Shown in pieces: positions 6,213 through 63,505 of a DNA stretch of 64,000 bases (its first letter is position 1; each line of letters begins with the position of its first letter). Below the pieces are notes generated by a model, which was given only the letters and a program-made list of their open reading frames with translations, made no database searches and was not told the DNA's origin. A program made the translations under genes and the position numbers. Origin of the DNA: Bacteroidota bacterium (GTDB lineage Bacteria > Bacteroidota > Bacteroidia > B-17B0 > Aurantibacillaceae). Location: contig JAUXTT010000004.1 in NCBI GenBank assembly GCA_030684395.1, positions 62,001-126,000 on the forward strand, written 5' to 3'.

Positions 6213-9200
6213 ATGGAAACAAGTACAATTAAAAAGGGGTTAAAAGTAGGTGCCACAGCAATTTTGGCGTTTTCTTTATTGGCTTGGGTTACACCTTCGC
6301 GTTATTACCAACAAGCTTTAGAAAATGAATTTATAAAAGATCTAAAGAAAAAACTGACTTCTTATAACGAAGAATTTCCGGAAGACAGAGTATATATTCA
6401 GTTTGATAAACCAATGTATGAACCGGGAGAAACGATTTGGTTTTCTGCAAATTTGTTGAACGCAAAAAACATGCAGGCTTCGGATAAGAGTGATATTTTG
6501 CATGTTGATTTTGTCAACCCAAAAGGAAGTGTAGAGAGAAGCATAAAACTTATTGCAAAGAATGGTAGAGTTGCCGGAGATTTTGATCTGGATAAAGAAG
6601 CATTAGGTGGTATGTATAAAATCCGTGCATACACCAATTGGATGAAGAATAGTGGTGAAGATAATGTATTCGAAAAAGAAATTCAGGTTCAGGATGTGGT
6701 TCTTCCAAACCTGAAAATGAAACTGGACTTTGAAAAGAAAGCTTTTGGTGCAGGTGATGAAGTGATCGCGAAATTGGTTTTGAATACAAACGAAAACAAG
6801 CCACTTGCTGATTATAAAATAAAACTTGTTGCTAATTTAAACGGACAAAAATTTATTGAGAAAGCAGAAGTGACCGATGAAGAAGGAATTAAATTTATCA
6901 AATTCACTTTACCAAAAGATTTGAAAACCAATGATGGTTTATTAAATGTAATGATCGATTACAATGGAAGCACAGAAAGTGTTTCACGTTCTATCCCTAT
7001 AGTTCTTAATAAAATTGACCTTGCTTTGTTACCTGAAGGTGGAGATTTAGTAGAAGGCTTACAAAGTAACGTTGCGATCAAAGCTTTAAACGAATTTGGG
7101 AAACCTGCTGATATTGAAGGTGTGGTTTTAAATTCAAAAGGAACAAAGGTGAGTACGTTCAGCAGTTTTTATAACGGTATGGGTGCGTTTAATTTTACTC
7201 CTGCTGCTAACGAAACATATACAGTAAAGATAACAAAGCCGGAAGGAATTACTGAAGTATATAAAATGCCGGAAGTTTTAAAAAGAGGTTATGTATTAAA
7301 TGTGAATAATACAAAAGACGGCGAACTTACTGCAACTATTCGTACTACTGAAACAGAGCAATTATCATTGGTTGCTCAGGTGAGAGGAACAATCTATTAT
7401 TCTACTGCTATAGACGCAAAAAAGGGCGACAACGCTATTATTATTCCAACTGAAAAATTTCCTGTAGGTGTTGCTCAGGTAACATTGTTTGATGCTAAAG
7501 GGATTGAACGCGCAGAACGTTTAAGTTTTGTAAACAGTAACAATCAACTTCAAATTTCTATTGAAACAGATAAAGAAAAATACTTGCCACGTGAAAAGGT
7601 AAAATTAACTGTACGTGTAAAAGATGAAAAAGGGATGCCTGCACCGGCTAATGTGGCACTGAGTGTTGTGAACGATCAGTTTCTTTCTTTTGCAGATGAT
7701 AAAACGGGAAATATTTTATCGGAATTATTATTACAACAAGATCTTAAAGGGAAAGTAGAAGAGCCTGCATTTTATTTCGATAAAAAAGAAGAGAAAGCGG
7801 AAAAAGCACTGGATTATTTATTGATGACCTCAGGCTGGAGAAGATTTACCTGGGAGCAAATCATGAAACAGGAAAAGCCTTTGATCACTTATGCAAATGA
7901 AAAAGCAATTGTAACAGGTACTGTTGTGGATGCAAATACATCAAAACCTCTCTCAAAAGTAAAAGTTAAGGTAGGTTCAATAGGAGAAGTTGTGGAAACG
8001 GATGAAAATGGGAAATTCACTTTCAAAAAAATGGACCTTACTTCTTATGTAACTCTTAATTTTACTTCTACCGGATATTCATATCAGTCTCTCCCAGTTT
8101 ACGAATACAATCAAAATTTAATGGTGTATTTGTATAAGCCAGTTTCTTATCCTTCATACACATATGCTACAGGAACTGGTAATGCTGCTGGTGTACCAAA
8201 ACAACCTTCAGGAAAAGGTGGGGTTAGGAATAAAAATAATGTCCCAAAAAAGGCGGAAAGAAATGATGTACCCGCTAATAATGTGATGGTTGATAACGTT
8301 CAAATGGTTCCTCAGGAAAATGTTGCAAATAATGTTGCTATTGCGGAACCGGGAGTTGTTGTAAAAGAAGACGAAGGAAAAGTGAAGGATGTAAAAAAAG
8401 GAAAGGATAAAGAAAAGAAAAATGTGTTGAGCGCAAAAGCGGATTTGAATGAGATCGCACTTGGAGACTTGGATGATGATGGCGTTTTTGTAAATGATAA
8501 CAGAAACAATTTTTTCAAAAATGGCGAAATGGCAAAGGTTGTTGCCGGAAAACCAATGCAGGCTATTACATATTATCGTGCGAAACAATTTTACGCACCA
8601 CAGTATGAAGCACAAGAGAATGTTGAAACCCGTACCGATTTTAGGAATACTGTTTACTGGAACCCGAATATTGAAGTAGATCATACCGGAAAAAAAACAG
8701 TGGAGTTTTATATGTCAGATGATGTTTCTTCTTTCCGCACAACTGTTGAAGGAATTAGTAATGAAGGAACAATTGGCAGAGGTGAGAAAACATTCTTTAC
8801 TCAATTACCTTTCGGAATGAGTACAAAAATTCCGGTAGAGGTTGCAACAGAAGATGTTGTTTCCATTCCTTTAACTTTAACCAATAACACTGATAAGCCG
8901 TTAGGTGGAAAATTAAGTGTATTGGCACCTGAAGCTTTGCTGGCTGTTCAAGCAACTCCTGAAATTCAAACCATTATGCCAGGCAAAGCAAAAACAATTT
9001 ATTTAGATTATAAAGTGTCTGATAAAATTGGAGTAGGAGATTTTACAGTAACGTTTAAAGCTTGTGGTTTAGGCGATGCTTTCACACAAAAGATCCGTAT
9101 CGCTCCAAAAGGATTTCCTGCTGGCGTTTCTTTCTCAGGGCAAGAGGTAGAAAAGGAATATACTTTCTCAAACAGAAATGTGGTTCGTGGTTCTTTAAAA

Positions 9201-10703
9201 GCAGTTGTAACAGCATTTCCAAACGTAGTTTCTGATTTGATGAAAGGTGTTGAAGGAATTTTGAGAGAGCCATCAGGTTGTTTCGAACAAACTTCCATGA
9301 GCTCTTACCCAAATGCTATGGTGTTGGATTATTTGAAAACATCCAACAGCGATGATGAAAAAACAATTTCCCGTGCAACAGAGTTGTTAGGTAAAGGTTA
9401 TAATCGTTTGATCACTTTTGAAACAAAAGAAAAAGGATACGAGTGGTTTGGTTCAAATCCGGGACATGAAGCTTTAAGTGCATACGGACTAATGCAATTC
9501 AACGATATGAAAAATGTGGGCGCTAATGTGGATCAAAAAATGGTGGGCAGAACGGCTGAATGGTTGATGAGCAGAAAAGATGGTAAAGGTGGTTTCCAAC
9601 AAAATTCAAAAGCACTGGATAATTTCGGTAGAGCAAGCAAAGAGATCACAGATGCTTATATTGTTTATTCATTATCAGAAGCAGGTTATACAGATATTAA
9701 AAAAGAATTTAACGCAGCTTATGATGATGCAGTGAAATCAAAAGATCCTTACACCTTAGCTTTGGTTACAAATGCAGCTTTTAATTTAAAAGAAACGAAA
9801 AAAGCAAGTGATGCGTTAAGTGCTTTGTTGAAATTGCAAGCAAACAACGGAAGCTGGACAGGAACTAAACATTCAATTACCTATTCAACCGGGCAATCAC
9901 TTATTGTTGAAACTACTTCATTGGCAACAATGGCAATGTTGAAAGAAACCAACAAGAATGGCGCCGCAGTGAATAAATCAGTAGAGTGGTTAATTGCAGC
10001 AAGAAACGGAAGTGGAACTTTCGGAAATACGCAGGGAACTGTGTTAGCATTAAAAGCATTAACTGATTTTGCGAAAGCAAGTAAAAAAACAACCGAAGAC
10101 GGAACTATTGTTGTTTATGTAGACGGAAAGAAAGCAGCTGAGAAAAGCTACAAAGCAGGCGATAAAGGAGCGATTGTTTTTGAAGGGATGGAAGAGTTTA
10201 TGAAAGAAGAAGGAAAGCACACTGTTAAGGTAAAATACCTGGGTGTAAAAACTCCACTTCCATACACAGTAGCTGTAAACTGGAATACTTATTTGCCGGT
10301 GAGTAATTCAGAATGCGTTGTTGATCTTAAAACAATAATGGCGGCTAAAACTGCAAACGTTGGAGAGACAGTTCGTTTAACAACAACTATTACAAACAAA
10401 AAGAATGAAGGTATTCCTACTACTATGGTGATAGTTGGAATCCCAGCTGGATTTACGGTTCAGCCATGGCAGTTAAAAGAATTGCAGGAGAAAAAAGCTT
10501 TTGACTATTACGAGATCAAAGGAAACAATGTAGCAATCTACTACCGTTGTATGGCTCCTTCAGCAGTGAAAGAAATTGGTCTGGATTTGAAGGCAGAAAT
10601 GCCGGGAGAATATGACGCTCCTGCCTCTTCAGCATACTTGTATTACACAAATGAATTTAAAACATGGAGCGGGGCAGATAAAGTAACTATTAAAAAATCA
10701 TAA
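6213..10703 (+). CDS. Alpha-2-macroglobulin family protein with thioester-type CxEQ motif
   Basis: 1496 aa; MG2-like start (YIQFDKPMYEPGETIWFSANLL), carboxypeptidase-regulatory-like segment (VTGTVVDANTSKPLSKVKVKVG), thioester motif SGCFEQTS at 9273-9293, followed by TED-like helices. Confidence 0.9.
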   Translation: METSTIKKGLKVGATAILAFSLLAWVTPSRYYQQALENEFIKDLKKKLTSYNEEFPEDRVYIQFDKPMYEPGETIWFSANLLNAKNMQASDKSDILHVDFVNPKGSVERSIKLIAKNGRVAGDFDLDKEALGGMYKIRAYTNWMKNSGEDNVFEKEIQVQDVVLPNLKMKLDFEKKAFGAGDEVIAKLVLNTNENKPLADYKIKLVANLNGQKFIEKAEVTDEEGIKFIKFTLPKDLKTNDGLLNVMIDYNGSTESVSRSIPIVLNKIDLALLPEGGDLVEGLQSNVAIKALNEFGKPADIEGVVLNSKGTKVSTFSSFYNGMGAFNFTPAANETYTVKITKPEGITEVYKMPEVLKRGYVLNVNNTKDGELTATIRTTETEQLSLVAQVRGTIYYSTAIDAKKGDNAIIIPTEKFPVGVAQVTLFDAKGIERAERLSFVNSNNQLQISIETDKEKYLPREKVKLTVRVKDEKGMPAPANVALSVVNDQFLSFADDKTGNILSELLLQQDLKGKVEEPAFYFDKKEEKAEKALDYLLMTSGWRRFTWEQIMKQEKPLITYANEKAIVTGTVVDANTSKPLSKVKVKVGSIGEVVETDENGKFTFKKMDLTSYVTLNFTSTGYSYQSLPVYEYNQNLMVYLYKPVSYPSYTYATGTGNAAGVPKQPSGKGGVRNKNNVPKKAERNDVPANNVMVDNVQMVPQENVANNVAIAEPGVVVKEDEGKVKDVKKGKDKEKKNVLSAKADLNEIALGDLDDDGVFVNDNRNNFFKNGEMAKVVAGKPMQAITYYRAKQFYAPQYEAQENVETRTDFRNTVYWNPNIEVDHTGKKTVEFYMSDDVSSFRTTVEGISNEGTIGRGEKTFFTQLPFGMSTKIPVEVATEDVVSIPLTLTNNTDKPLGGKLSVLAPEALLAVQATPEIQTIMPGKAKTIYLDYKVSDKIGVGDFTVTFKACGLGDAFTQKIRIAPKGFPAGVSFSGQEVEKEYTFSNRNVVRGSLKAVVTAFPNVVSDLMKGVEGILREPSGCFEQTSMSSYPNAMVLDYLKTSNSDDEKTISRATELLGKGYNRLITFETKEKGYEWFGSNPGHEALSAYGLMQFNDMKNVGANVDQKMVGRTAEWLMSRKDGKGGFQQNSKALDNFGRASKEITDAYIVYSLSEAGYTDIKKEFNAAYDDAVKSKDPYTLALVTNAAFNLKETKKASDALSALLKLQANNGSWTGTKHSITYSTGQSLIVETTSLATMAMLKETNKNGAAVNKSVEWLIAARNGSGTFGNTQGTVLALKALTDFAKASKKTTEDGTIVVYVDGKKAAEKSYKAGDKGAIVFEGMEEFMKEEGKHTVKVKYLGVKTPLPYTVAVNWNTYLPVSNSECVVDLKTIMAAKTANVGETVRLTTTITNKKNEGIPTTMVIVGIPAGFTVQPWQLKELQEKKAFDYYEIKGNNVAIYYRCMAPSAVKEIGLDLKAEMPGEYDAPASSAYLYYTNEFKTWSGADKVTIKKS

Positions 10704-28358: not shown

Positions 28359-31031
28359 ATGAAACGAATTTTACTACTAACCATTTTACTTGTTGTTTAT
28401 CGAGGGTATGCTCAAATAGATACTTTACCTGTTACTGGACCAACCTGGGGAGGTTCATCGAAACTTCAAGATATGCTAATCGATAATACTGGGAACTATT
28501 GGCTTACGTATTCAAATACAAATGCCACCCTTAGTGGTGTAAAAAGATACGATGGTGCAAATTGGATTTTATATCAAACAAGTAATTCAGGACTGCCAAG
28601 TAATCGTGTTAACACGGTAATTCAGGATGTAAACAATAACTATTGGCTTGGAACGAATGCAGGTTTGGCGAAATTTGATGGAACAAATTGGACCGTATAC
28701 AATAAAGCTAATTCAGGAATCTGTTCTGATACTATTTATGTGATTAAGGAAAGTGGCAGTAATCTCTGGTTAGGTACAAATAATGGATTGAGTAAATTTG
28801 ATGGTTCAAACTGGACGACATTCAATAACCAAAATTCGGGCTTGAATAACAATATTATAAATAGTCTGGAAAGTGATGGGACTAATTTGTATATAGGAAC
28901 AACCAATGGTTTGTCTATTTTAAACAATTCTGTTGTACAAAATTATCCTCATAATTTTCAGGTAGGAAATATAACAAGTTCTATAAAACTTACTTCTGAC
29001 TATGGTATTGTGATTGCGACCAGCAAAGGTGTGTTTATGTTTAATAATGGAACATACACAATTTTAGAAGATTATTTTGATTTTTGTTCAGTACAAAATT
29101 TTATTTTTTCTACTACGGAAAAGAGAAAATATATTGAAACAAATTCATTTAATGGGATTGTTGTGAATTATGGTGGATACATTCGTGAATTTAATGGAAG
29201 TGCAAGCGCGGATCTTATTTTAGGCTCTGTTAAAGGGCTATTGAAACGGAAAAACGGAAAGTATTTTGTTTTAGCATATAGCGGAAGTCAGTTGTGTATT
29301 TTAAGTATTGATGAAATAAATAACCCTAATGCATTTGTTCCATTGGCTCAGTCCATAACAAATTGTTACACAGAAAAGTTAAATATTAATCAGGTTAGTG
29401 CGCCCATGTTGGATAGAGGAGATATGTTTGGGGATCTCAACAACAATGATGGTTATGAAGTTCCCAAAGGGTCGGGTTCTTATGTGGCATTTGCAGGAAG
29501 TATTTGGATAGGCGGAAGAGTTGGTACTAATCTTAGAACTGCTTGTCAAACATATAGACAAAGCGGAACGGATTTTTGGCCGGGACCATTGGATACTGTT
29601 ACTGCTCAGAATCCAAACGATACTGGTTCATTAGGGAATATTATGAAGGTTAATAGATTTGATGTGCAGAATTTCATTTTCAACTATAACAACGGAAATG
29701 TACAATCAGGAAATTTTATGCCTTCACGTGGCATTTTAAACTGGCCCGCTCATGGAACAGGAAATTTTTCAAGAAACACAGCTCCATTTATTGATGTAAA
29801 TTTAAATGGGTTGTATGATCCATTAACAGGAGGAGATTATCCGGATATCAAAGGAGATCAAATGTTGTATCATATTTATAACGATGCCAGTGGCAATCAC
29901 CTTGAATCAGGAAGCCTTAATCCCTTGAGGTTGGAGATTAGACAAAAGTCTTATGCTTACACATGCGAAGGAATTGCTGATAGCTTGAAGGCATTGAACT
30001 ACACAACCTTTTACGAATTTGAAATCATTAATAGAAGTGATGATATTATTGATAGCATGTATATCGCTTATTGGAATGATTCGGATCTTGGCTTTTATAA
30101 TGATGATTATGTAGGATGTAATGTGAAAGAGAATTATGGCTACATATATAATGGAGATAATTACGATGAAGATGGAAGTGGTATTGGTTATAAAAATTAT
30201 TTACCATGTTTTGCCACTGCTATTGTGGAAGGGCCGGTAGCAGACATTGGTGATGGTACAGACAATGATCATGATGGAATAGTAGATGAGCCTGGAGAGC
30301 AGCTAGGAATGTCTTCCTTTTTGAATTATTACAATGATTTTTCCAACATGGGAAATCCTTCACAACAAATACATTATTATAATTATATGAGAGGTAATTG
30401 GAAAGATGGTAGCGCAATAAAATATGGAGGAAATGGGACAAGTGGCACTATTGCAACCAAATACCAATATCCCGGAAACACGGATCCTATTGGATATGGA
30501 GTAGGAGGAAGTCCGTCAAACCCAATGCCGCAACCAACGTGGACAGAAGCCACAGCGGGGAATTTACCGGGCGATAGAAGACTTATCGTGGGCTCCGGTC
30601 CTTTCACCTTGCAAGCAAAAGACACTACTAAAATTGTTTATGCTATGGTATTCACACAAGATAGTGCGAATCCATTTGCAAGTATTGTAAAGAATGAACA
30701 GGATGTAAAAAGAATTAAAGCATGGTACAACAATAAAAATTTCCCATCATGTTTGGATCTTAGCACAATAAGTATAAAAGAGAATAAAACCGGTAAGCTG
30801 AATTACTCTTTATATCCAAACCCTGCAACCAATGCTTTTACTTTAGTAACGGATCAATTGAATGGCGACAATACTATTGAAATTTTTGATATTGTTGGAA
30901 AAAGAGTAATGACTGAAAATATAACATCTAACAAACAAGTGTTTTCAATAGCAGATCTTGCAAGCGGAATCTACATTGTTAAAATAAATGATAAGTACAC
31001 GCCTGTTTCCTGTAAGTTAATAAAACAATAA
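28359..31031 (+). CDS. Secreted protein: propeller repeats + shared GSGSY/DFWPGPLD module + T9SS type A sorting domain
   Basis: NYWLGTNAGLAKFDGTNWTVYN repeats; YEVPKGSGSYVAFAGSIWIGG...TYRQSGTDFWPGPLD; C-terminal YPNPATNAFTLVT...GIYIVKI. Confidence 0.85.
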   Translation: MKRILLLTILLVVYRGYAQIDTLPVTGPTWGGSSKLQDMLIDNTGNYWLTYSNTNATLSGVKRYDGANWILYQTSNSGLPSNRVNTVIQDVNNNYWLGTNAGLAKFDGTNWTVYNKANSGICSDTIYVIKESGSNLWLGTNNGLSKFDGSNWTTFNNQNSGLNNNIINSLESDGTNLYIGTTNGLSILNNSVVQNYPHNFQVGNITSSIKLTSDYGIVIATSKGVFMFNNGTYTILEDYFDFCSVQNFIFSTTEKRKYIETNSFNGIVVNYGGYIREFNGSASADLILGSVKGLLKRKNGKYFVLAYSGSQLCILSIDEINNPNAFVPLAQSITNCYTEKLNINQVSAPMLDRGDMFGDLNNNDGYEVPKGSGSYVAFAGSIWIGGRVGTNLRTACQTYRQSGTDFWPGPLDTVTAQNPNDTGSLGNIMKVNRFDVQNFIFNYNNGNVQSGNFMPSRGILNWPAHGTGNFSRNTAPFIDVNLNGLYDPLTGGDYPDIKGDQMLYHIYNDASGNHLESGSLNPLRLEIRQKSYAYTCEGIADSLKALNYTTFYEFEIINRSDDIIDSMYIAYWNDSDLGFYNDDYVGCNVKENYGYIYNGDNYDEDGSGIGYKNYLPCFATAIVEGPVADIGDGTDNDHDGIVDEPGEQLGMSSFLNYYNDFSNMGNPSQQIHYYNYMRGNWKDGSAIKYGGNGTSGTIATKYQYPGNTDPIGYGVGGSPSNPMPQPTWTEATAGNLPGDRRLIVGSGPFTLQAKDTTKIVYAMVFTQDSANPFASIVKNEQDVKRIKAWYNNKNFPSCLDLSTISIKENKTGKLNYSLYPNPATNAFTLVTDQLNGDNTIEIFDIVGKRVMTENITSNKQVFSIADLASGIYIVKINDKYTPVSCKLIKQ

Positions 31032-50882: not shown

Positions 50883-50899
50883 AACCCAAATCTTTTCCA

Positions 50900-51003
50900 A
50901 CCATATAAGGCATGTAAGGACATTGAAGGCAAAACCAAATGTCAACATAATTTACTTTTCACCTTCACTAAGCTTATATGAACTTAAATGCCTCATATGG
51001 TTC
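50900..51003. repeat. Long imperfect hairpin element AACCATATAAGGCATGTAAGG...CTTAAATGCCTCATATGGTT
   Basis: Inverted arms; inverted, shortened relative at 63547-63612. Confidence 0.8.
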
Positions 51004-51344
51004 TATTTACTCCACCATTTCACACACATCATTCGGTCTGAGAAAAGCCTCGACTTTTTTTAAACTTAAAATCTGTTAAAACCGGAATTAACCACTTATC
51101 TGAAAAAAGCTACCACTTATCAAATTTATCACCACCACTCATCAACCGGTTCTATCAAAAACACGCTTATTGTCGTAAAATTGTTAAAATATTTAAAAGT
51201 TACAGGTGCTGAGGAAAAAATTAAAATTGGTTATCAGGCAATTAGGAATAATTTGATAATTCATTTGGCTTATTTTAACACGATAAGTATTTTTAGCCCC
51301 TCATATTGGGTACATAGTATAAAAACGATATAAATAGGTAAAGC

Positions 51345-54300
51345 ATGTTAAGAAAAATTTACTTCAGTATTATAGCCACAATTGCCTTAGGTGTTGCAGG
51401 TTTTGCGCAAAATAAAGGAGCTATTAAAGCAACTTTGATTGATGAAAAAACCAAAGAACCATTGGCGTTTGCTAACGTAATTGTAACAAGTAATGGTCAA
51501 CAGGTTGGTACTGGTACCACTGATTTTGATGGGGTTGTTATTATTAAACCACTAGACCCGGGTAAATATAATGTTAAGGCGGTTTACGTTGGTTACAATA
51601 AAAAAGAGATGAGCGGTGTGCAGGTTTTTGCCGATAAAACTGCTTATGTAAATATTGGATTGATAAATGATGGCGGTGTTCAATTGGATGAGGTGCAAAT
51701 CATTTCTTATACTGAGCCTTTAATCGATCCGGATACTAAATCGGGTGGTACAGTTACTCGTGAGGAGTACCAAAATATGGCAACGAAAAACATTAACTCG
51801 GTTGCATCTACAACAGCAGGTGTTTATCAGGAAGATGAAGGAGATGCGGTAAATGTACGCGGAGCCCGTTCTGGTAACACTCAGATTTTTATTGACGGAG
51901 AAAGAGCTATTGGAACATCTGGAATTCCTCAGCAAGGTGTTGAACAAGTGAGCGTAATTTTAGGTGGTTTACCTGCACAGTATGGTGATGCTACCGGTGG
52001 TGTTATCAGTGTTACAACACGCGGCCCTCAGCCAAAATTCTTTGGTGGTGTTGAAGCAATTTCTTCTCAAATCACCGATAAATACGGATATAACTTTATT
52101 GGATTTAGTGTAGGCGGACCAATCTGGTCTAAAAAGGACTCAACAGGTGCAAAAAAGCCAAAAATTGGTTTCTTCTTAGCCGGTGAGGCTTTCCGCGAAA
52201 AGGATCCTGATCCTTCTGCGGTTGGAGTTTATACTGTAAACGACGAAAAATTAGCTGAGATTACAGCTAAGCCACTAATTAAGCAAGAAGATGGTAGTTT
52301 TTTACCTGCTGCTACATTTATTACAAAAGATGATATGGTATTGTTGAAAGCAAGACCAAACGTTGCTAAAACATCTTTCCGTGTGAACCCTAAAATTGAT
52401 TTCAAAATTACAGATAACTTAAACATAACTTTAGGTGGTTCATGGGATTATAACAAGCAGCATGCTTATAGCAGAAACAACTCTATGTTCAATGCTGAAA
52501 ACAATGCTTTTGTAACAAGAAATGTATGGAGAACCTATGTTAGACTTCAACAAAAATTCGGTAAGTCAAATGTCTCTGAAGAAGAAAAATCTCAGTCAGT
52601 TGTAAAAAATGCATATTTGAGTTTTCAGGTAGGTTATCAGAAAAATAAAGAAATTAGTGAGGATGATACGCATAAAGATAAATTTTTCAGATATGGTTAT
52701 GTGGGTAAATTTAACACTTATGCAAGCACTGCATTAGAAGTTGATACCATCCGCACAGTTTATTACGATCAAAACGGAGATGGAATTACTGATACTGTAA
52801 ACCTTGATCCAAATACTGCTCAAAATGGTGAACTTGTTTATTATAACGTTTCACCAAGTGATTCATTGGTAACCTTTACCCCACAGTCAAGTCCTTACAA
52901 TCAATCAATGACCAACTACACCACTCAATTCTTTGATGAGTTTGGTTATCCTGTAAATAGTGTTTATCAGGTTTATGGTTTAGGTGGTAATATTAACGGA
53001 TTACCGGGGCAAACAATCCATTCATTGTATACGCCTTCCGGAAATCAGTATGTAGGATACGTTAAAAACGACGAGTCGATTTTCAGGATTACAAGTAGTT
53101 TCTCTGCTGATATTAAAAATCATGCTTTAATGGTTGGTTTTGAGTTCGATCAAAGAGATTACAGAAACTTTACAGTAAACAATGCAGTAGGTTTGTGGCA
53201 GTATGCACGCCAATTAACTAACCAGCAATTTGCAACACTTTCATCATCATCATTTACAATTGATACAACAACTGCAGGGGATATAGTTGTGAACTATGCC
53301 CCTGATTATACACAAATTTCTAATTTCCACTACAGTTTGATGGACAAGTTCGGATATTCAAAAGACGACAGAATAAATGTAGATGGTTTGGATCCCGATC
53401 AAATGTCGCTTGATATGTTTAGCCCTGATGAATTAGTAGCTGCAGGTTATAACCTTGTTGCAGCTTATGGTTACGATTATTACGGAAACAGATTAAAGAA
53501 AAATGTAACTTTTGATGATTTCGCTACGCAAACCAAGAAAAATGCCAGAGGGGAAGATGAATTTACCAGAGCAGTTGGCGCATTTAAACCCGTTTACATG
53601 TCAGGTTATATTCAGGATAAATTCGACTTCAAGGATATGAAATTTAACATTGGAGTTAGGATTGATAGATACGATGCGAATCAAAATGTATTAGCTGACA
53701 GGTATTTATTAAAACCTGCTTATACAAGAGGAGAAATGACTGCTCAGCAGGATTATAAAAATGTAACTGGTCTTTCTTTGGCTCAGGGAGTTCCTGATGA
53801 TGCAGTTGTATATTTTGGAGAAGGTGCCAATGCACAAGGTGCAAACGTTATAGGATACAGATTTGAAAGCACTTGGTACGATGTTAATGGTAACGTTGTT
53901 CAGGATCCAAAAATTATTTTGGCTGCTTCAAACGGTGGCGCTAATCCTGCGTTGAAATTACAGGATCCATTCTACGCTTCTGATTATTCCTATTCTAATA
54001 ACGCCTTTAAGGATTACAAACCACAAATCAATGTAATGCCCCGTGTGGCTTTCTCTTTCCCAATTTCTGACGTGGCAAATTTCTTTGCTCATTACGATGT
54101 ACTTACTCAGCGCCCTTCAGACGCACAAAATCGTTTGGATCCCAATGCTTATTATTATTTTCAACAATGGATTACACAAGGTAACACCTTTAATAATCCT
54201 GATTTAAAAGCTGAAAAAACAATTGATTATGAATTAGGTTTTAACCAGATCTTAAATGAAAAGAAAAGTGCAGCCCTTAAGCTGTCTGCTTTCTACAGAG

Positions 54301-55160
54301 AGTTAAGAAACCAGGTTGCAACTCAGCGTTTAACAGGAGCTTATCCTGCTGATTATATCAGTTACTCAAATCTTGATTTTGGAACTGTAAAAGGTTTCTC
54401 AGTAGAGTTTGATATGAGAAGAAGCGGCGGTTTTACTTTAAACGCTAACTACACTTTGCAATTTGCTGAAGGATCAGGTTCAAGTGCTGACGGAGGATTT
54501 AATCTAGCTAACACTAATCAGCCAAATCTTCGTGTAACCTTACCTTTAGATTTCGATCAGCGTCATACTTTAACAACTACATTAGATTATCGTTTTGGCG
54601 AAGGAAAAGATTACAATGGACCTAAGTACACTAAGAAAAAAGGTGATACTGAGAAAACAGTACAAATCCTTCAAAACGTTGGTGCAAACATGGTATTCCG
54701 TTTAGGTTCAGGTACACCATATACAAGAACTGCTGTTCCATTGTCTGATGTAATGGTTGGTGTTCAGCAAAACACAGTTATTGTAGGTGCATTAAATGGT
54801 TCTTACCTGCCTTGGCAATTCCGTGCTGATATGCGTGTTGACAAGAATTTTGAATTGGAGTTTGGAAAAAGCAAACCGGAAGAAGACAGAAAATCGGTTA
54901 ACCTTAACATATACCTTCAGGTGTTAAACGTTTTCAATAACAAAAACATTGTTAATGTGCATCAGCATACCGGGTCACCTACTGATGACGGATACTTAAA
55001 TTCAGCACAAACCGGGCAACAGTTTATTAATTCAACAGTTGCAATTAATGGAAATGCTTATTTAAATGGTTTTGTTGATCAATACCGTGCTAAATTAAAT
55101 GATGGCACTTATTATAACAGACCAAGAGTAATTCGTGTGGGTGTTTTGTTTGAATTCTAA
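51345..55160 (+). CDS. TonB-dependent receptor with N-terminal carboxypeptidase-regulatory-like domain
   Basis: 1271 aa; KATLIDEKTKEPLAFANVIVTSNGQQVGTGTTDFDGVVIIKPLDPGKY; plug motif DAVNVRGARSGNTQIFIDGERAIG; C-terminal RVIRVGVLFEF. Confidence 0.93.
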   Translation: MLRKIYFSIIATIALGVAGFAQNKGAIKATLIDEKTKEPLAFANVIVTSNGQQVGTGTTDFDGVVIIKPLDPGKYNVKAVYVGYNKKEMSGVQVFADKTAYVNIGLINDGGVQLDEVQIISYTEPLIDPDTKSGGTVTREEYQNMATKNINSVASTTAGVYQEDEGDAVNVRGARSGNTQIFIDGERAIGTSGIPQQGVEQVSVILGGLPAQYGDATGGVISVTTRGPQPKFFGGVEAISSQITDKYGYNFIGFSVGGPIWSKKDSTGAKKPKIGFFLAGEAFREKDPDPSAVGVYTVNDEKLAEITAKPLIKQEDGSFLPAATFITKDDMVLLKARPNVAKTSFRVNPKIDFKITDNLNITLGGSWDYNKQHAYSRNNSMFNAENNAFVTRNVWRTYVRLQQKFGKSNVSEEEKSQSVVKNAYLSFQVGYQKNKEISEDDTHKDKFFRYGYVGKFNTYASTALEVDTIRTVYYDQNGDGITDTVNLDPNTAQNGELVYYNVSPSDSLVTFTPQSSPYNQSMTNYTTQFFDEFGYPVNSVYQVYGLGGNINGLPGQTIHSLYTPSGNQYVGYVKNDESIFRITSSFSADIKNHALMVGFEFDQRDYRNFTVNNAVGLWQYARQLTNQQFATLSSSSFTIDTTTAGDIVVNYAPDYTQISNFHYSLMDKFGYSKDDRINVDGLDPDQMSLDMFSPDELVAAGYNLVAAYGYDYYGNRLKKNVTFDDFATQTKKNARGEDEFTRAVGAFKPVYMSGYIQDKFDFKDMKFNIGVRIDRYDANQNVLADRYLLKPAYTRGEMTAQQDYKNVTGLSLAQGVPDDAVVYFGEGANAQGANVIGYRFESTWYDVNGNVVQDPKIILAASNGGANPALKLQDPFYASDYSYSNNAFKDYKPQINVMPRVAFSFPISDVANFFAHYDVLTQRPSDAQNRLDPNAYYYFQQWITQGNTFNNPDLKAEKTIDYELGFNQILNEKKSAALKLSAFYRELRNQVATQRLTGAYPADYISYSNLDFGTVKGFSVEFDMRRSGGFTLNANYTLQFAEGSGSSADGGFNLANTNQPNLRVTLPLDFDQRHTLTTTLDYRFGEGKDYNGPKYTKKKGDTEKTVQILQNVGANMVFRLGSGTPYTRTAVPLSDVMVGVQQNTVIVGALNGSYLPWQFRADMRVDKNFELEFGKSKPEEDRKSVNLNIYLQVLNVFNNKNIVNVHQHTGSPTDDGYLNSAQTGQQFINSTVAINGNAYLNGFVDQYRAKLNDGTYYNRPRVIRVGVLFEF

Positions 55161-55179
55161 TTGAATAAAAATTATTGAT

Positions 55180-58100
55180 ATGAAAAAGTATAACGGTAAA
55201 TATAAAAAGCAGATTAGTGCCAGCATGATGGCGGTACTGATGTTGGTTTGTTCATCTGTGTTTTCAAGAGAAAATATTGGAGGGGCTCAGAAATTATCAA
55301 ACATTGATAAGGTATTAAGCGGTTGTAGTGCAGGTTCTGCTTATACAGAATTAAAGCTTAACAATGTTAGAACAAGGATATTAACTTGTGGTGATATGTG
55401 GTGGGATTTGAACAGCAACCCAAAGTATGAAGTACCAAAGGGATCCGGTTCTTATGCCAGTTTCGCCGGATCATTGTGGTTTGGTGGGTATGTGGGAACT
55501 GATTTACGTGTTTCTGCAATGACTTACCGTCAGAGTGGTGTGGATTTTTGGCCGGGGCCATTGGATCCGGCAACAAGAGATGTTGATCCTGCTACCTGTG
55601 TTGCTTATGATAAGCACTGGAGATTTAACCGTGCAGAGGCAGACGAGTTTTACACTAAATACGCTCTTCCTACTAAAAATGGGGACGCTGTTGATGCTAC
55701 TTATTCAGTTCCGGCTTGGATAAAAGATTACCCCGGATCCGCTCCTTCTCAATTGGATCGTAATGCTGGAAGTTTATATGCTTATTTAGCACCTTTTGAA
55801 GATGTGGATGGTGATAACGTTTATAGTTGGGAGGTTGGAGATTATCCTCGTTATAACGTAAGTAACACTCAAATTGAGCAAGGACAATGTAAGAGATTGT
55901 TGTTTGGTGATGAAACGCTTTTCTGGGTATTTAACGATAAAGGTAATACCCACTTGGAATCCGGAAGCCCTAACAAAATTGGTGTAGAGATCAGAGCACA
56001 GGCATTTGAATTTGCTACAGGTGATGCCTTGAACGATATGACTTTTTACAATTTCGAGATCATTAACCGTTCTACAGACATCTTAGATTCTACTTACTTT
56101 GCTGTTTGGGTGGATGCTGATTTGGGATATTATAATGATGATTATATTGGTTGTGATGTTGGTCGTGGTTTAGGTTATATATACAATGGAGATAACTATG
56201 ATCAGGATGGTCAGGGTGTTATAGGTTACAAAAACAAACTTCCTGCATTAGGATGTGATTTCTTTCAGGGACCAATTGCAGATAAAGCGGATGGCTTGGA
56301 TAACGATAAGGATGGTTGCACTGATTGTACCTGGCCCATTGATAACGAAACAGGATTAAAAGATACTTTGGCTTCACCGATTAGCGAAGATTCCATTCCT
56401 GAAACTATTAGTATGTCCAAATTTATGTACTATAACAATGACTTCAGTAATATTGGTAACCCTTCGGCTTTGAAGCATTATTATAATTACATGACCGGTT
56501 CATGGAAAAATGATACCCGTGTTCGTTACGATAACGCAGTTGGAACATCTACAGTAACAACCAAGCCAATTTGTGATTATGTATTTCCTGGTAAATCAGA
56601 TTTGACTATTGGTTATGGTGTTGGAGGAACTCCTTCAAATCCAAATACCACTACAACAGAATGGACTGAAAAAACAGCGAATAACTCAGTTGGTGACAGA
56701 AGATTTTTACAATCAGCAGGTAAGTTTACTTTACAACCTGGGGCTATCAACACCATTACTTTTGGTATGCCATTCGTTAGAACCAATTCGGATGATAATT
56801 TCTCTGCGATTCCACTGTTAACTATTGCAGATGATAAAGCCCAGTCTTTGTTTGATAATTGTTTCAAAGTATTGGATGGGCCTGATGCACCTGATTTAAC
56901 TATTCAGGAAATGGAAAATCAGTTCATTGTGTATTTGTCTAACAAAGAAACGTCTAATAACTATGAGTTAAAGAGATATGCTGATATTGACCCAACTATC
57001 ACTCCGATATTTGGTGCAGCTACAGATAGATCTTACCGTTTTGAAGGATATATGGTTTATCAGTTAAAAGATGAAACAGTTTCTGCTTCTGATTTATATG
57101 ATCAAAATAAAGCCCGTTTAGTATTCCAGTCAGATAAGAAAAATGGAGCAGGATTATTGGTTAATTACACCTTAGATCCAACTTTAGGTTTAGTCCCTAA
57201 ATTAATGAATGAGAAAGCAGAAAATGCAGGAATTAAAAACTCATTCGTTCTTACAGAAGATTTATTTGCTGAAGGTGTTAAGAAACTGGTAAACCATAAG
57301 ACTTATTATTTCATGGCGGTTTCGTATGCTTACAATAATTATCTTACTTATAAGGAAGATGTTGCTCCGGGTATTGACTCTACAGGTGCCGATGCTCACC
57401 CTTCAAGTGGTGATTATGCGGGACAGAAAAAGCCATTCCTTCAGGGAAGAAGAAATATAAAAATTTATTCTGCTGTCCCTCACAATATTTCGCCTGAAGC
57501 AGGTGGTACGGTTGTTAACTCTTATTATGGCTACAGTCCAATGGTAAAACGTATTGAAGGACAGGGAAATGGCGGGAATGCATTGGATTTAACCGCTGCA
57601 ACAGTTAATAGTATTTTAAACAGCTCTGATAGCAGAGCCACTGTATTAGAATACGAAAGCGGAAGAGCACCAATTACTGTTAAAGTAGTTGACCCATTAA
57701 AAGTTGTGGAAGGTAACTTTGTGGTAAAAGTAAAAAAAGCAATTGCGAATTTTGATAATACAGGTGATACATTGGTAATGGGTGAAACAACTGATTTGGA
57801 TTCAGGAAAAGTTAAACCTTCTTATAAATTTCAGGTTTCAGGAACTTATACTGATTTTGATGGTTCTTCTGTAACAAAAACATGGGATGCTGATGAAGTT
57901 GTGGAGTTTGGCCAAGAGTTTTTATTGATTGGTAATAATAATACCCCAATTGGTATATCAGTAGCTGTGGCCCAAACAAAGGATCCTAATTGTAATATTT
58001 ATACCGATAAAACTACAACTAATACTCAACTAAATATTGGTTCTGCCGAAGAAGGAGAATTGTTAGAGTCTTCATTGACTTTCGCTAACTCCAGTTTGAA

Positions 58101-59628
58101 ATGGTTGAGTGCGGTTGCTGATGTTGATGGAGAAACAGAAACCAACTGGATTCGTTCAGGTACTGTAACAAGTGGTCCGAATAACCCATACAATGATGCA
58201 AACGTACCGGGCTCTGATGGAAAAAGCGTTTTTGATGACCCCAATCAGATCTATGAGAGTGTTGTAGGCGGTACATGGGCTCCGTTCAGGTTAACTGCAG
58301 CAGCTAATCTTGGTGCGGCTTTCGGTTCTAGTCCTGCTCCATTGACGTATGCTCCATCAATTGGTTTCGTTTCAGGTGCTCAATTGCAGTGGAAAAGATT
58401 GAATAATTACGAATTAGATGCCAGATCACTGTCAAGTGTTGATATTGTGTTTACCTCTGATAAAAGCAAATGGACAAGAGCGGTTGTTTTAGAAATGGGC
58501 TACTACAATGCAGACAATGTTGGTACCCAGCGTAAATTCCTGCCACGCAAGCAAAAATCTGTAGATAAGAATGGTGCTGCTGGCGATAGTAGTTTACTTT
58601 CAACAGATCCGAATGATGCAGATTATATCTCTCCTTATGGTATGGGCTGGTTCCCAGGTTATGCTATTAATGTTGAAACAGGTGAGCGACTTAACATAGC
58701 ATTTGGTGAAAATTCGTCCGATGGAACAAATAATGGAAAGGATATGATTTGGAACCCAACAAATAATGAAGCAGCTTTTGGTGGTATGCATTACATCTAT
58801 GTTTTCGGTCATAACTCTGATGGAGTTTCGGGAACGGATCCTATTGATGTGCCAAGATATGATGCAGGTGCAGCGTTAATTCAAATGTTGGGCAAACCCG
58901 TTACTACAAATAATACTCATTATCTTACCGGTTATGGGCAAGCTACCATTGTGGAAGCTTATAAAGATGCTATGTGGGTGAACATTCCTCTTACAGCAGA
59001 TGGTTATACACCGCCAGCGGGTTACCAGGTATCTATTCCTTGCGACGCTAAGGTTAAAATAAGAGTAAGAAAACCTTTACGTTTTGGATTAACCGGAACC
59101 TGGAACCCTTCTTATTCTGTAAAAGAAACCCAAACTACAACTAACCCGTCAACTTTTATACCCGGTACAACTTTCCTAAACTCAATAAACCCGGCGAATT
59201 TAACAAGTGATACGGTGTCTGGCTCTCAAAACAATAACTTCCCGATGTATTCATTTAATACTGTTGGGTTAGGTGCTACCCTTAACGAAACTGATGTTGC
59301 AAAGAGTGCACTGGATCTTATCAATGTTGTTCCAAACCCTTATTACGGACACTCTCAATACGAGAAACAAAGGGTTGATAATTACATGAAAATTGTAAAC
59401 TTACCTGTGAAATGTACTATTAAGATCTATACTGTAAATGGTACGTTATTAAGAACCTTGAATAAAGATACGGATGCAACAACAGATGTTTCATGGGATC
59501 TTAAAAACGATAAAAACATCTTAATATCAAGTGGCTTATATATTATCCATGTTGATGCAGGTGAATTAGGTGAGAAAATAGTTAAGTGGTTCTGTGTAAT
59601 GCGTCCAATAGATTTACAATCGTATTAA
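55180..59628 (+). CDS. Large exported protein sharing the GSGSY/DFWPGPLD module; T9SS-like C-terminus with unusual tail
   Basis: GDMWWDLNSNPKYEVPKGSGSYASFAGSLWFGGYVGTDLRVSAMTYRQSGVDFWPGPLD; C-terminal VVPNPYYGHSQYEKQRVDNYMKIVNLP...GLYIIHVDAGELGEKIVKWFCVMRPIDLQSY. Confidence 0.85.
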   Translation: MKKYNGKYKKQISASMMAVLMLVCSSVFSRENIGGAQKLSNIDKVLSGCSAGSAYTELKLNNVRTRILTCGDMWWDLNSNPKYEVPKGSGSYASFAGSLWFGGYVGTDLRVSAMTYRQSGVDFWPGPLDPATRDVDPATCVAYDKHWRFNRAEADEFYTKYALPTKNGDAVDATYSVPAWIKDYPGSAPSQLDRNAGSLYAYLAPFEDVDGDNVYSWEVGDYPRYNVSNTQIEQGQCKRLLFGDETLFWVFNDKGNTHLESGSPNKIGVEIRAQAFEFATGDALNDMTFYNFEIINRSTDILDSTYFAVWVDADLGYYNDDYIGCDVGRGLGYIYNGDNYDQDGQGVIGYKNKLPALGCDFFQGPIADKADGLDNDKDGCTDCTWPIDNETGLKDTLASPISEDSIPETISMSKFMYYNNDFSNIGNPSALKHYYNYMTGSWKNDTRVRYDNAVGTSTVTTKPICDYVFPGKSDLTIGYGVGGTPSNPNTTTTEWTEKTANNSVGDRRFLQSAGKFTLQPGAINTITFGMPFVRTNSDDNFSAIPLLTIADDKAQSLFDNCFKVLDGPDAPDLTIQEMENQFIVYLSNKETSNNYELKRYADIDPTITPIFGAATDRSYRFEGYMVYQLKDETVSASDLYDQNKARLVFQSDKKNGAGLLVNYTLDPTLGLVPKLMNEKAENAGIKNSFVLTEDLFAEGVKKLVNHKTYYFMAVSYAYNNYLTYKEDVAPGIDSTGADAHPSSGDYAGQKKPFLQGRRNIKIYSAVPHNISPEAGGTVVNSYYGYSPMVKRIEGQGNGGNALDLTAATVNSILNSSDSRATVLEYESGRAPITVKVVDPLKVVEGNFVVKVKKAIANFDNTGDTLVMGETTDLDSGKVKPSYKFQVSGTYTDFDGSSVTKTWDADEVVEFGQEFLLIGNNNTPIGISVAVAQTKDPNCNIYTDKTTTNTQLNIGSAEEGELLESSLTFANSSLKWLSAVADVDGETETNWIRSGTVTSGPNNPYNDANVPGSDGKSVFDDPNQIYESVVGGTWAPFRLTAAANLGAAFGSSPAPLTYAPSIGFVSGAQLQWKRLNNYELDARSLSSVDIVFTSDKSKWTRAVVLEMGYYNADNVGTQRKFLPRKQKSVDKNGAAGDSSLLSTDPNDADYISPYGMGWFPGYAINVETGERLNIAFGENSSDGTNNGKDMIWNPTNNEAAFGGMHYIYVFGHNSDGVSGTDPIDVPRYDAGAALIQMLGKPVTTNNTHYLTGYGQATIVEAYKDAMWVNIPLTADGYTPPAGYQVSIPCDAKVKIRVRKPLRFGLTGTWNPSYSVKETQTTTNPSTFIPGTTFLNSINPANLTSDTVSGSQNNNFPMYSFNTVGLGATLNETDVAKSALDLINVVPNPYYGHSQYEKQRVDNYMKIVNLPVKCTIKIYTVNGTLLRTLNKDTDATTDVSWDLKNDKNILISSGLYIIHVDAGELGEKIVKWFCVMRPIDLQSY

Positions 59629-59648
59629 TTAATTGTTTAAAAGAAGTT

Positions 59649-60758
59649 ATGATGAATAAGATATCTAAAATAGTTTTAAATTCTGCGATTGGAATTTCTC
59701 TTTTGTCTGCAGGTGTAGCAACAGCAGGTAACCCTGATCGTGCGGGTTCAGCCGGGAGCGGTCAGCTTTTAATAAACCCTTGGGCTCGCTCTACGGGTTG
59801 GGCTGGTTCTAATCAGGCTAACGCACATGGCTTAGAAGCAATGTTCCTAAACGTAGCCGGTATGGCTTTTACTAAGAAAACGGAAGTTGTTTTCTCTCGT
59901 TCAAGTTGGTTAGGCGGATCCGGTATTAATATGAATGCTTTTGGTTTTTCTCAACATGTGGGTGAAACCGGAGTGTTAGGACTAGGAATTGTTTCCTTAG
60001 ACGGAGGCGATATTGATATCACAACTGTTGATCAACCTGAAGGTGGAATAGGTCAATACTCTCCATTGTTTTTAAATATTGGTTTGTCTTATGCAAAAGC
60101 ATTTTCAGATAATATTTATGGTGGAGCAACTTTAAAAATTGTATCTGAGCAAATCTCTAACATTTCGGGAAGAGGAGTTTGTTTGGATGCGGGTATTCAA
60201 TACCACACAGGTAAATACGATCAGTTTCATATTGGAATTTCATTGAAAAATGTGGGACCTAAAATGACTTACCGCGGAGATGGTATGTCGTTTGAAGCAA
60301 ACATTACCAATGGCACTCAATCTAATGGTTCTGTTTCCGGTTACAACGCAACTTTTGAGCAACGTTCTGCTTCTTATGAATTACCTTCTTGTTTAAATAT
60401 GGGATTATCTTATGACTTCCTTTTGGGTGTTAGTGATAGCGTAAAAGCAAGCGAAGTTGACCACAGAATTTCTGTTGCCGCTAACTATACATCAAATTCT
60501 TTCACCTACGATCAATACTCTTTAGGTGTTGAATACGGTTTCAAAAAATACCTGATGGTAAGGGGAGGTTATACTTACGAAAAAGGAATTTTGAAGTCAG
60601 ATACACGTAGAACTGTTTTTACCGGACCAACTGCAGGTGTAACATTACAGTTACCTTTTGGTGCTGAAAAAAATAAGAGCTTTGCTTTAGATTATTCATA
60701 CAGATTCACAAACCCGTTCAGCGGAGTGCATTCAATTGGTGCAAGAATCAACTTGTAA
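59649..60758 (+). CDS. PorV/PorQ-like outer-membrane beta-barrel protein
   Basis: GNPDRAGSAGSGQLLINPWARSTGWAGSNQANAHGLEAMFLNVAGMAFTKKTEVVFSRSSWL; start at ATG 59649. Confidence 0.8.
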   Translation: MMNKISKIVLNSAIGISLLSAGVATAGNPDRAGSAGSGQLLINPWARSTGWAGSNQANAHGLEAMFLNVAGMAFTKKTEVVFSRSSWLGGSGINMNAFGFSQHVGETGVLGLGIVSLDGGDIDITTVDQPEGGIGQYSPLFLNIGLSYAKAFSDNIYGGATLKIVSEQISNISGRGVCLDAGIQYHTGKYDQFHIGISLKNVGPKMTYRGDGMSFEANITNGTQSNGSVSGYNATFEQRSASYELPSCLNMGLSYDFLLGVSDSVKASEVDHRISVAANYTSNSFTYDQYSLGVEYGFKKYLMVRGGYTYEKGILKSDTRRTVFTGPTAGVTLQLPFGAEKNKSFALDYSYRFTNPFSGVHSIGARINL

Positions 60759-60788: not shown

Positions 60789-60812
60789 AATCCGCCTTTA
60801 GGGGCGGATTTC
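60789..60812 (+). terminator. Hairpin between PorV-like gene and greA
   Basis: AATCCGCC-tttagg-GGCGGATTtc. Confidence 0.6.
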
Positions 60813-60837: not shown

Positions 60838-61311
60838 ATGTCACAAATTGCTTATTACACGGAAGAAGGCTTGCTTAAATTAAAGAATGAATTGCACAAT
60901 CTGGAAAAGGTTGAAAGACCAGGTATTATAAAAGCAATTGCAGAAGCAAGAGATAAAGGTGATCTTTCTGAGAATGCGGAGTATGATGCAGCCAGAGAGG
61001 CTCAGGGTTTACTTGAGTTTAAGATCAATAAATTAAAAGATATATTAGCTAACGCTCGTCTTATTGATGAGACACAATTGGATCTCAGTAAAGTTTCTAT
61101 ACTGACCAAAGTAAAGATCAAGAACCTGAAGAATGGTGCAAATATGCAATATACAATTGTTGCAGAAAACGAAGCTAATTTAAAAGAACTGAAAATATCG
61201 ATAGACTCACCTATCGGAAAAGGTCTTTTAGGTAAAAAAGTTGGCGACAAAGTGGATATTGCAGTCCCAAGCGGAGTTATACCTTTTGAAATCATTGAGA
61301 TCAGTTTGTAA
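60838..61311 (+). CDS. greA: Transcription elongation factor GreA
   Basis: YYTEEGLLKLKNELHNLEKVERPGIIKAIAEARDKGDLSENAEYDAAREAQG. Confidence 0.98.
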   Translation: MSQIAYYTEEGLLKLKNELHNLEKVERPGIIKAIAEARDKGDLSENAEYDAAREAQGLLEFKINKLKDILANARLIDETQLDLSKVSILTKVKIKNLKNGANMQYTIVAENEANLKELKISIDSPIGKGLLGKKVGDKVDIAVPSGVIPFEIIEISL

Positions 61312-62713: not shown

Positions 62714-63505
62714 ATGAAATCAGGGTTTTATATATGTATTATTTTCTTTGCGGTATTCAGCAACAAAATAGTGTCGCAAAGCAAACCTATGATAGTATTG
62801 CCACAGGTTAGGGGAGCCGATATTATGTGGTCTAAAGAAATCTGGCGCACAATTGATCTTTCGGATCGTTTCAATTTCTCGTTTTATTTTCCCACCCAAA
62901 AACGAAAAGATCAACTCTGTTTGTTTGACGTTATTTCGAAAGGGTTGATCAATAATGAATTTAATGCATACAAAACGGATGAGATAACGGAAGGAGATAC
63001 TTTGTCTCCCGATCAGGTTAAAAGTAAAATAGTATTCAGAGATTCGATGTTGTTTTATTATGCCGATGAGTTTGGAAATGATAGCACTGAGAAAAAATTA
63101 GTAACCGACACGATGAGTGGGGAATACATTGTACAATACTATGTAAGGGAAGTTTGGTTTTTCGACAAACAAAGATCCGTTATGGATGTCAGGATCAAAG
63201 CAATTTGTCCAGTGAAATATGACATGGAAAAGGGATTATTAATTCCTTTATTCTGGATCAATTATGAAGAAGCGAGGCCATGGCTAAGTTCATTTTCCGC
63301 GTTAAATTCAAAGAACGATTCGGAGAAAAGAAGCTTTGATGAACTTTTTGTAAAAAGAAAATTCAATAGTACTATAAAAAAGGAAAGCAATCTATACGAT
63401 AGGGAAATAGCCGATTATGTTCAGAACGAAAAAGAAGCAGTACAAGAATCAGAAAGAATAAAAGATTTTCTTAGGAATTTTGAATGCGATATGTGGGAGT
63501 GGTGA
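62714..63505 (+). CDS. gldN: Gliding motility/T9SS protein GldN (PorN)-like
   Basis: IMWSKEIWRTIDLSDRFNFSFYFP, VREVWFFDKQRSVMDVRIKAICPV, LFWINYEEARPWLS, FDELFVKRKFNSTIKKESNLYDREIADYV. Confidence 0.82.
   Translation: MKSGFYICIIFFAVFSNKIVSQSKPMIVLPQVRGADIMWSKEIWRTIDLSDRFNFSFYFPTQKRKDQLCLFDVISKGLINNEFNAYKTDEITEGDTLSPDQVKSKIVFRDSMLFYYADEFGNDSTEKKLVTDTMSGEYIVQYYVREVWFFDKQRSVMDVRIKAICPVKYDMEKGLLIPLFWINYEEARPWLSSFSALNSKNDSEKRSFDELFVKRKFNSTIKKESNLYDREIADYVQNEKEAVQESERIKDFLRNFECDMWEW

Follow-up and report, generated by a model that had tools for sequence, protein, structure and literature searches.

A conserved gene triad of the Bacteroidota encoding a TonB-dependent receptor, a large exported protein and a private PorV-family barrel

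In the attachment complex of the type IX secretion system (T9SS), PorU and PorZ keep their C-terminal domains (CTDs) and are held by PorV and PorQ, respectively (PMC5562754; PMC11285876). Private pairing of a cargo protein with a barrel has a precedent in type B cargo, where the cargo gene is followed by the gene for its own shuttle or anchor barrel of the PorP/SprF type, as in SprB-SprF and Fjoh_3952-Fjoh_3951 (PMC12618676; PMC9143113). SusCD/RagAB systems co-encode a CarboxypepD_reg-extended TonB receptor and a large surface binding protein, and are expanded in some genomes. The Bacteroidota BAM with an extracellular canopy (BamG/BamH/BamM) joins a FadL-like barrel to a large extracellular partner; the canopy subunits known so far comprise lipoproteins and a FadL homologue, and a TonB receptor is absent (PMC12611786; PMC12578637).

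The locus described here resembles each of these systems in part. It encodes a CTD-type surface protein and a PorV/PorQ-family barrel, as PorU-PorV and PorZ-PorQ do. The two genes adjoin in the same way as porU and porV of the same genome, and the nearest folds to the CTD are those of PorZ and PorU. However, the surface protein has neither a sortase domain nor the PorZ propeller domains, the barrel falls outside both the PorV and the PorQ equivalogs, the unit includes a TonB receptor, and some classes carry many copies per genome. The order of cargo gene and barrel gene is that of the type B pairs, but here the CTD has the type A fold, the barrel belongs to the PorV family, and a receptor gene precedes. 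In contrast to SusCD/RagAB there is no SusD-family lipoprotein, the receptor falls below the SusC/RagA cut-off, and the surface protein has a T9SS-type CTD end and its own PorV barrel. The BAM canopy differs in that its partners are surface lipoproteins bound to BamA, with no TonB receptor and no T9SS CTD, and an identity with BamG, BamH or BamM was rejected on composition. None of the nearest precedents (PorU-PorV, PorZ-PorQ and type B cargo-SprF) contains a TonB receptor. No description of the unit was found in the open full-text literature; subscription papers and preprints lay outside that search.

Layout of the locus and its three products

The window (the whole stretch of 64,000 nucleotides that was analysed) contains three co-directional open reading frames on the + strand at 51345-60758. 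We refer to their products as TBDR, BIG and PORV. The features of the locus are as follows.

50883 to 51344, + strand: upstream intergenic region of 462 nt, before the TBDR gene
51345 to 55160, + strand: TBDR, TonB-dependent receptor of 1271 aa, with signal peptide, CarboxypepD_reg domain, TonB-box-like motif, plug and barrel
55180 to 59628, + strand: BIG, exported surface protein of 1482 aa, with signal peptide and T9SS CTD-like end
55330 to 56838, + strand: module of about 500 aa (BIG residues about 51-553), common to two T9SS propeller proteins of the same genome
57895 to 59625, + strand: C-terminal part of BIG (residues 906-1482), structure model with mean pLDDT 80.9
59221 to 59625, + strand: diverged T9SS C-terminal domain, VPNPYY...SGxYxxHVD...KILK
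59587 to 59625, + strand: conserved 13-aa C-terminal extension WFCVMRPIDLQSY, past the end of canonical type A CTDs
59649 to 60758, + strand: PORV, private PorV/PorQ-family outer-membrane barrel of 369 aa, above the NF033709 cut-off
60789 to 60810, + strand: intrinsic-terminator-like hairpin at the 3′ end of the unit, before greA
60838 to 61311, + strand: greA, a neighbour of the unit that is conserved in Bacteroidia

An earlier note, made from the window alone, had described three co-directional genes with short gaps behind a long intergenic region. The reading frames bear this out, with gaps of 19 nt between TBDR and BIG and 20 nt between BIG and PORV, and 462 nt upstream. No match was found in the upstream region (50883-51344) when it was searched against Rfam or, for a Bacteroidota promoter, with TTTG-N-TAnnTTTG as the only pattern. 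The predicted terminator sets the three genes apart from greA, which is probably transcribed separately. The start of PORV was taken as the ATG at 59649, consistent with its orthologues; the listed GTG at 59586 would overlap BIG. Searches of PDB sequences with TBDR, BIG and PORV each as query gave no matches. Elsewhere in the window, a GldN-family gene (PF19841) lies close to the 3′ side of the unit at 62714-63505; such a gene is also found near the unit in the nearest relative (L033), and none was detected in more distant relatives. An alpha-2-macroglobulin-like protein of 1496 aa with an inserted CarboxypepD_reg-like domain is encoded at 6213-10703.

TBDR contains PF13620 (CarboxypepD_reg), PF07715 (plug) and PF00593 (barrel), all above the Pfam cut-offs. 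Its TonB-box-like motif, LDEVQIISY, is followed by a conserved segment, PLIDPDTKSGGTVTRE; the general form is LDEVxVxxY with a conserved PLIDPDTKSG segment behind it, and orthologues conserve this TonB-box region. Plug, barrel and TonB-box-like motif together identify TBDR as a TonB-dependent receptor, and because of the motif and the conserved segment it is probably energised. It gave no match at E<=1 to the SusC/RagA profile TIGR04056, and distant receptors scored 58-94 bits against a cut-off of 368, below the SusC/RagA threshold. No SusD domain was found among the window genes scanned downstream or among 20 proteins flanking expanded triads. As SusD was lacking and the SusC match was sub-threshold, a SusCD identity was rejected.

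PORV scored 133 bits against NF033709 (PorV/PorQ family; cut-off 90), a profile matched by 14 of 14 PORV orthologues. Against the PorV, PorQ and PorV2 equivalogs it scored 51, 66 and 39 bits, far below the cut-offs of 250, 220 and 325. The composition proposed in the earlier note, a TonB-dependent receptor with a large exported protein and a PorV/PorQ-like barrel, is thus confirmed by the Pfam domains of TBDR, the signal peptide and CTD-like end of BIG, and the NF033709 score. The same genome has a canonical PorV (503 bits) adjoining PorU, and also PorQ and PorV2, elsewhere. PORV is therefore an additional, separate member of the family, and the earlier suggestion of a private PorV paralogue holds. 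In a tree of 75 PorV-family members, in which two PorQ rows (L198, L204) are probably wrong frames, canonical PorV formed one clade, and the window's PORV fell in a clade (support 99/100) that brings together 32 triad proteins of Bacteroidia and of other classes. The tree gave no firm deep order for the remaining paralogous triad proteins. The genome contains at least 150 type A CTD matches. Its PorV2 (G000 contig 31, L185 7342-8478; NF052325, 470 bits) is a putative further PorV-type sorting system besides PorU-PorV and PorQ.

A Pfam scan of BIG gave no domain match. Its module of about 500 aa, which in many members includes a DxDxDG-type acidic motif, is 48-50% identical to the C16 and C26 paralogues of the same genome. 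One protein with a BIG-like module is encoded in the window at 28359-31031 (890 aa; a regulator-type propeller, the module and a canonical T9SS type A tail), and a second propeller protein, a 939-aa paralogue, lies on another contig (contig 16; L002). Since both propeller paralogues end in a canonical type A CTD, the module occurs with two C-terminal sorting signals in one genome: the same module comes with an ordinary secretion tail and with a special CTD and private PorV. The N-terminal part of BIG was modelled with a pLDDT of 83. A fold search with this model showed weak, partial likeness to beta-sandwiches of sugar enzymes and no convincing functional match, and the likeness was not counted as functional evidence.

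The C terminus of BIG is a diverged T9SS CTD. The window protein falls short of the curated type A cut-offs: TIGR04183 matched residues 1406-1462 with E=0.011 and 15.7 bits, below the cut-off of 23, and PF18962 gave no match. PF18962 was matched at E<0.01 by 18 of 69 relatives. The model of residues 906-1482 has an Ig-like CTD fold, and its best PDB fold matches were PorZ (E=2.4e-6) and then PorU (1e-3), with further matches to the PorV-bound CTDs of RemZ, NucA and RemA. The PorZ C-terminal profile was matched by distant BIG members (E=2e-10) and not by the window protein, so that similarity to PorU/PorZ-type CTDs extends to sequence in the distant members only. BIG is not a type B cargo with a PorP/SprF partner: it matched neither TIGR04131 (CHU_C) nor PF13585, and its partner barrel is of the PorV family. 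The sub-threshold TIGR04183 match, the fold and the distant members together agree with the earlier description of a large cargo-like protein beside a PorV. Bacteroidia orthologues end in GEKI(L)KWFGVMRPxDLxSY/F, of which KWFGVMRPxDLxSY/F is the conserved extension. The monomer model leaves the final residues poorly ordered, which would suit a tail that binds a partner.

Because its CTD is most like the retained CTDs of PorU and PorZ, BIG is more likely to be anchored than released. This bears on the earlier proposal of a client-specific export module. The private PorV, the CTD-like domain and the co-conservation of the genes support it in part, but as worded it misses that the likeness to retained CTDs makes anchoring likelier than release, and that a TonB receptor belongs to the unit. 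PORV could instead be a shuttle only, with BIG exported in the ordinary way and released or attached to LPS, and the receptor a mere conserved neighbour with a related ligand, outside any complex. PorV is known as a shuttle (PMC5562754), and the pairing parallels that of type B cargo with SprF shuttles (PMC12618676). However, the CTDs nearest to that of BIG belong to PorZ and PorU, which retain them, and the C-terminal extension of the BIG orthologues runs past the point where type A CTDs usually stop; we consider this explanation unlikely, also in view of the receptor data given below.

Linkage across the phylum and co-occurrence with type IX secretion

BIG was matched in 75 of 80 related genomes, mostly over its full length within the family, with 45-66% identity. 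The neighbourhoods of 20 of these loci showed the order TBDR-BIG-PORV over the length that the contigs cover, in most cases with greA and a HIT-family gene behind. The sole real exception (L045) was a second, solitary BIG copy whose genome carries the complete unit as well (L047). A second genome collection yielded 80 named loci, 76 of them with room on both sides. Both partners were adjacent and in the same order in 70 of these 76, with median gaps of 27 and 31 nt, the exceptions being five solitary BIG copies and one locus without PORV; greA was present in 65 of the 80. Lone BIG genes, with neither receptor nor PORV, were seen at L045, L055, L062, L076, L096 and L121. The BIG proteins of the phylum's other classes are diverged and about 1100 aa long, and the same three genes were found in the same order at all 20 loci examined.

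As the same order recurs throughout the phylum, it is conserved far beyond chance, and by this measure the triad is a co-conserved unit. The neighbourhood check proposed in the earlier note found the genes linked both in the named loci and in other classes. The two outcomes it had listed as counting against it, homologues that are usually unlinked and a cargo family already characterised otherwise, were not encountered.

Co-occurrence with the T9SS was examined in 297 genomes of the phylum. SprA (SprA_N) was present in 113 of 113 BIG-positive genomes, compared with 227 of 297 overall (raw counts that ignore kinship); the 113 exclude the window's own genome, which is also SprA-positive. Within this sample BIG was thus confined to SprA genomes, consistent with T9SS dependence. 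Many SprA-positive genomes of the same class (Bacteroidia) are without BIG. The secretion machine therefore does not generally include BIG, and the ligand or role of BIG is not universal.

These distributions also bear on another possible role of the unit, as an accessory to protein secretion or to outer-membrane assembly (comparable with PorU/PorV/PorQ/PorZ or the BAM canopy) that acts on other proteins and not on nutrients. The unit is single-copy and highly conserved in Bacteroidia (PORV orthologues across the class are 49-86% identical to the window's), it has a fixed position beside greA, and gldN is nearby in the window and in one relative. We nevertheless regard such a role as improbable: many T9SS-positive genomes lack the unit, the BAM canopy has no TonB receptor among its lipoproteins and FadL homologue (PMC12611786; PMC12578637), and the up to a dozen divergent copies per genome fit ligand diversification better.

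Expanded copies and their co-divergence

In addition to these loci, 26 further complete triads were obtained from three other-class genomes, with BIG proteins of 637 to 1263 aa; about a dozen of these triads come from one genome. TonB receptors with a PORV gene close downstream made up 6 of 26, 10 of 19 and 13 of 35 plug hits in the three expanded genomes. When within-genome distances were compared among paralogous triads, those of PORV correlated with those of the CTD (r=0.70), the rest of BIG (r=0.78) and TBDR (r=0.83), and none of 5000 within-genome shuffles reached the observed correlations. It follows from these correlations that the units duplicate and diverge together. Co-divergence is a sign of shared history, and joint duplication of linked genes gives the same pattern without contact. 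The receptor is linked to the unit and co-diverges with it as tightly as PORV does, which again speaks against PORV serving only as a shuttle beside an unconnected receptor.

Among the flanking genes of expanded triads were those for two CBM9 proteins with T9SS tails, a protein with a LacI-type sugar-binding domain, an RpiR-type SIS regulator and several other T9SS cargos. The sugar-related flanks are confined to a few expanded copies, with none at the window's own locus; they hint at polymer or sugar use for some expanded copies and have no direct bearing on the window copy.

Variant arrangements were also seen. At L163, L173 and L178, in three expanded genomes, a CTD protein lies upstream of a protein of about 700 aa (with a T9SS tail in both of the two scanned), a ~500-aa unknown, a TonB receptor and PORV, the last two remaining adjacent. 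L180 has three tandem CTD proteins of about 900 aa each with strong BIG-type CTD scores, and no PORV or receptor was found in the stretch examined.

The earlier note had favoured a secretion or attachment purpose. Since the receptor belongs to the unit, and is present in nearly every copy, and several expanded loci have carbohydrate-related neighbours, uptake or binding is favoured instead. A further possibility is that BIG serves as a surface layer protein, for structure or adhesion, and that receptor and PORV are needed only for its display. Its very large, beta-rich ectodomain has no enzyme signature, and conserved aromatic and glycine positions are abundant. Display alone, however, needs no receptor with a plug and a TonB-box-like motif, and one is found in nearly every unit; we think this explanation very unlikely.

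Proposed role of the unit

The reading that we favour, with some confidence, is that the T9SS exports BIG, which then stays bound to its own PORV and acts as a SusD-like extracellular binder for the adjacent TBDR. From homology, linkage and co-occurrence we infer its export route, CTD retention, PORV anchoring, receptor contact, uptake and ligand class. Sec would carry BIG into the periplasm, and BIG would then pass the outer membrane through the SprA translocon by means of its diverged C-terminal domain. After translocation the dedicated barrel PORV would collect it. BIG, unlike ordinary cargo, would retain its CTD and be anchored non-covalently on PORV, after the model of PorU on PorV, PorZ on PorQ and type B cargo on PorP/SprF. 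The large beta-rich ectodomain would capture a ligand and hand it over to the adjacent TonB-dependent receptor, so that BIG would fill a SusD-like role as a T9SS protein and not as a lipoprotein. The single-copy version beside greA in Bacteroidia would be an old core copy, and in other classes of the phylum the unit has multiplied, presumably for different ligands.

The conservation and multiplication of the triad suggest a surface machine for uptake or binding, so far undescribed, that the T9SS serves. More tentatively, it could represent an unnamed class of TonB-dependent uptake systems, in which a T9SS-delivered binder sits on a dedicated PorV barrel, a shuttle turned anchor; such systems would be ancestral in Bacteroidota sensu lato and, in some classes, would include a large fraction of all TonB receptors. 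Because the unit is widespread in the Bacteroidota and no description of it was found, much of the phylum may possess a core envelope function that has yet to be studied, though the unit was not found in many sampled T9SS-positive genomes of its class. If the proposed role is correct, the unit would explain many uncharacterised PorV-family genes of these genomes and make it possible to test directly whether PorV-family barrels are specific to single clients. It would also join TonB-driven uptake and type IX secretion, which are normally treated apart.
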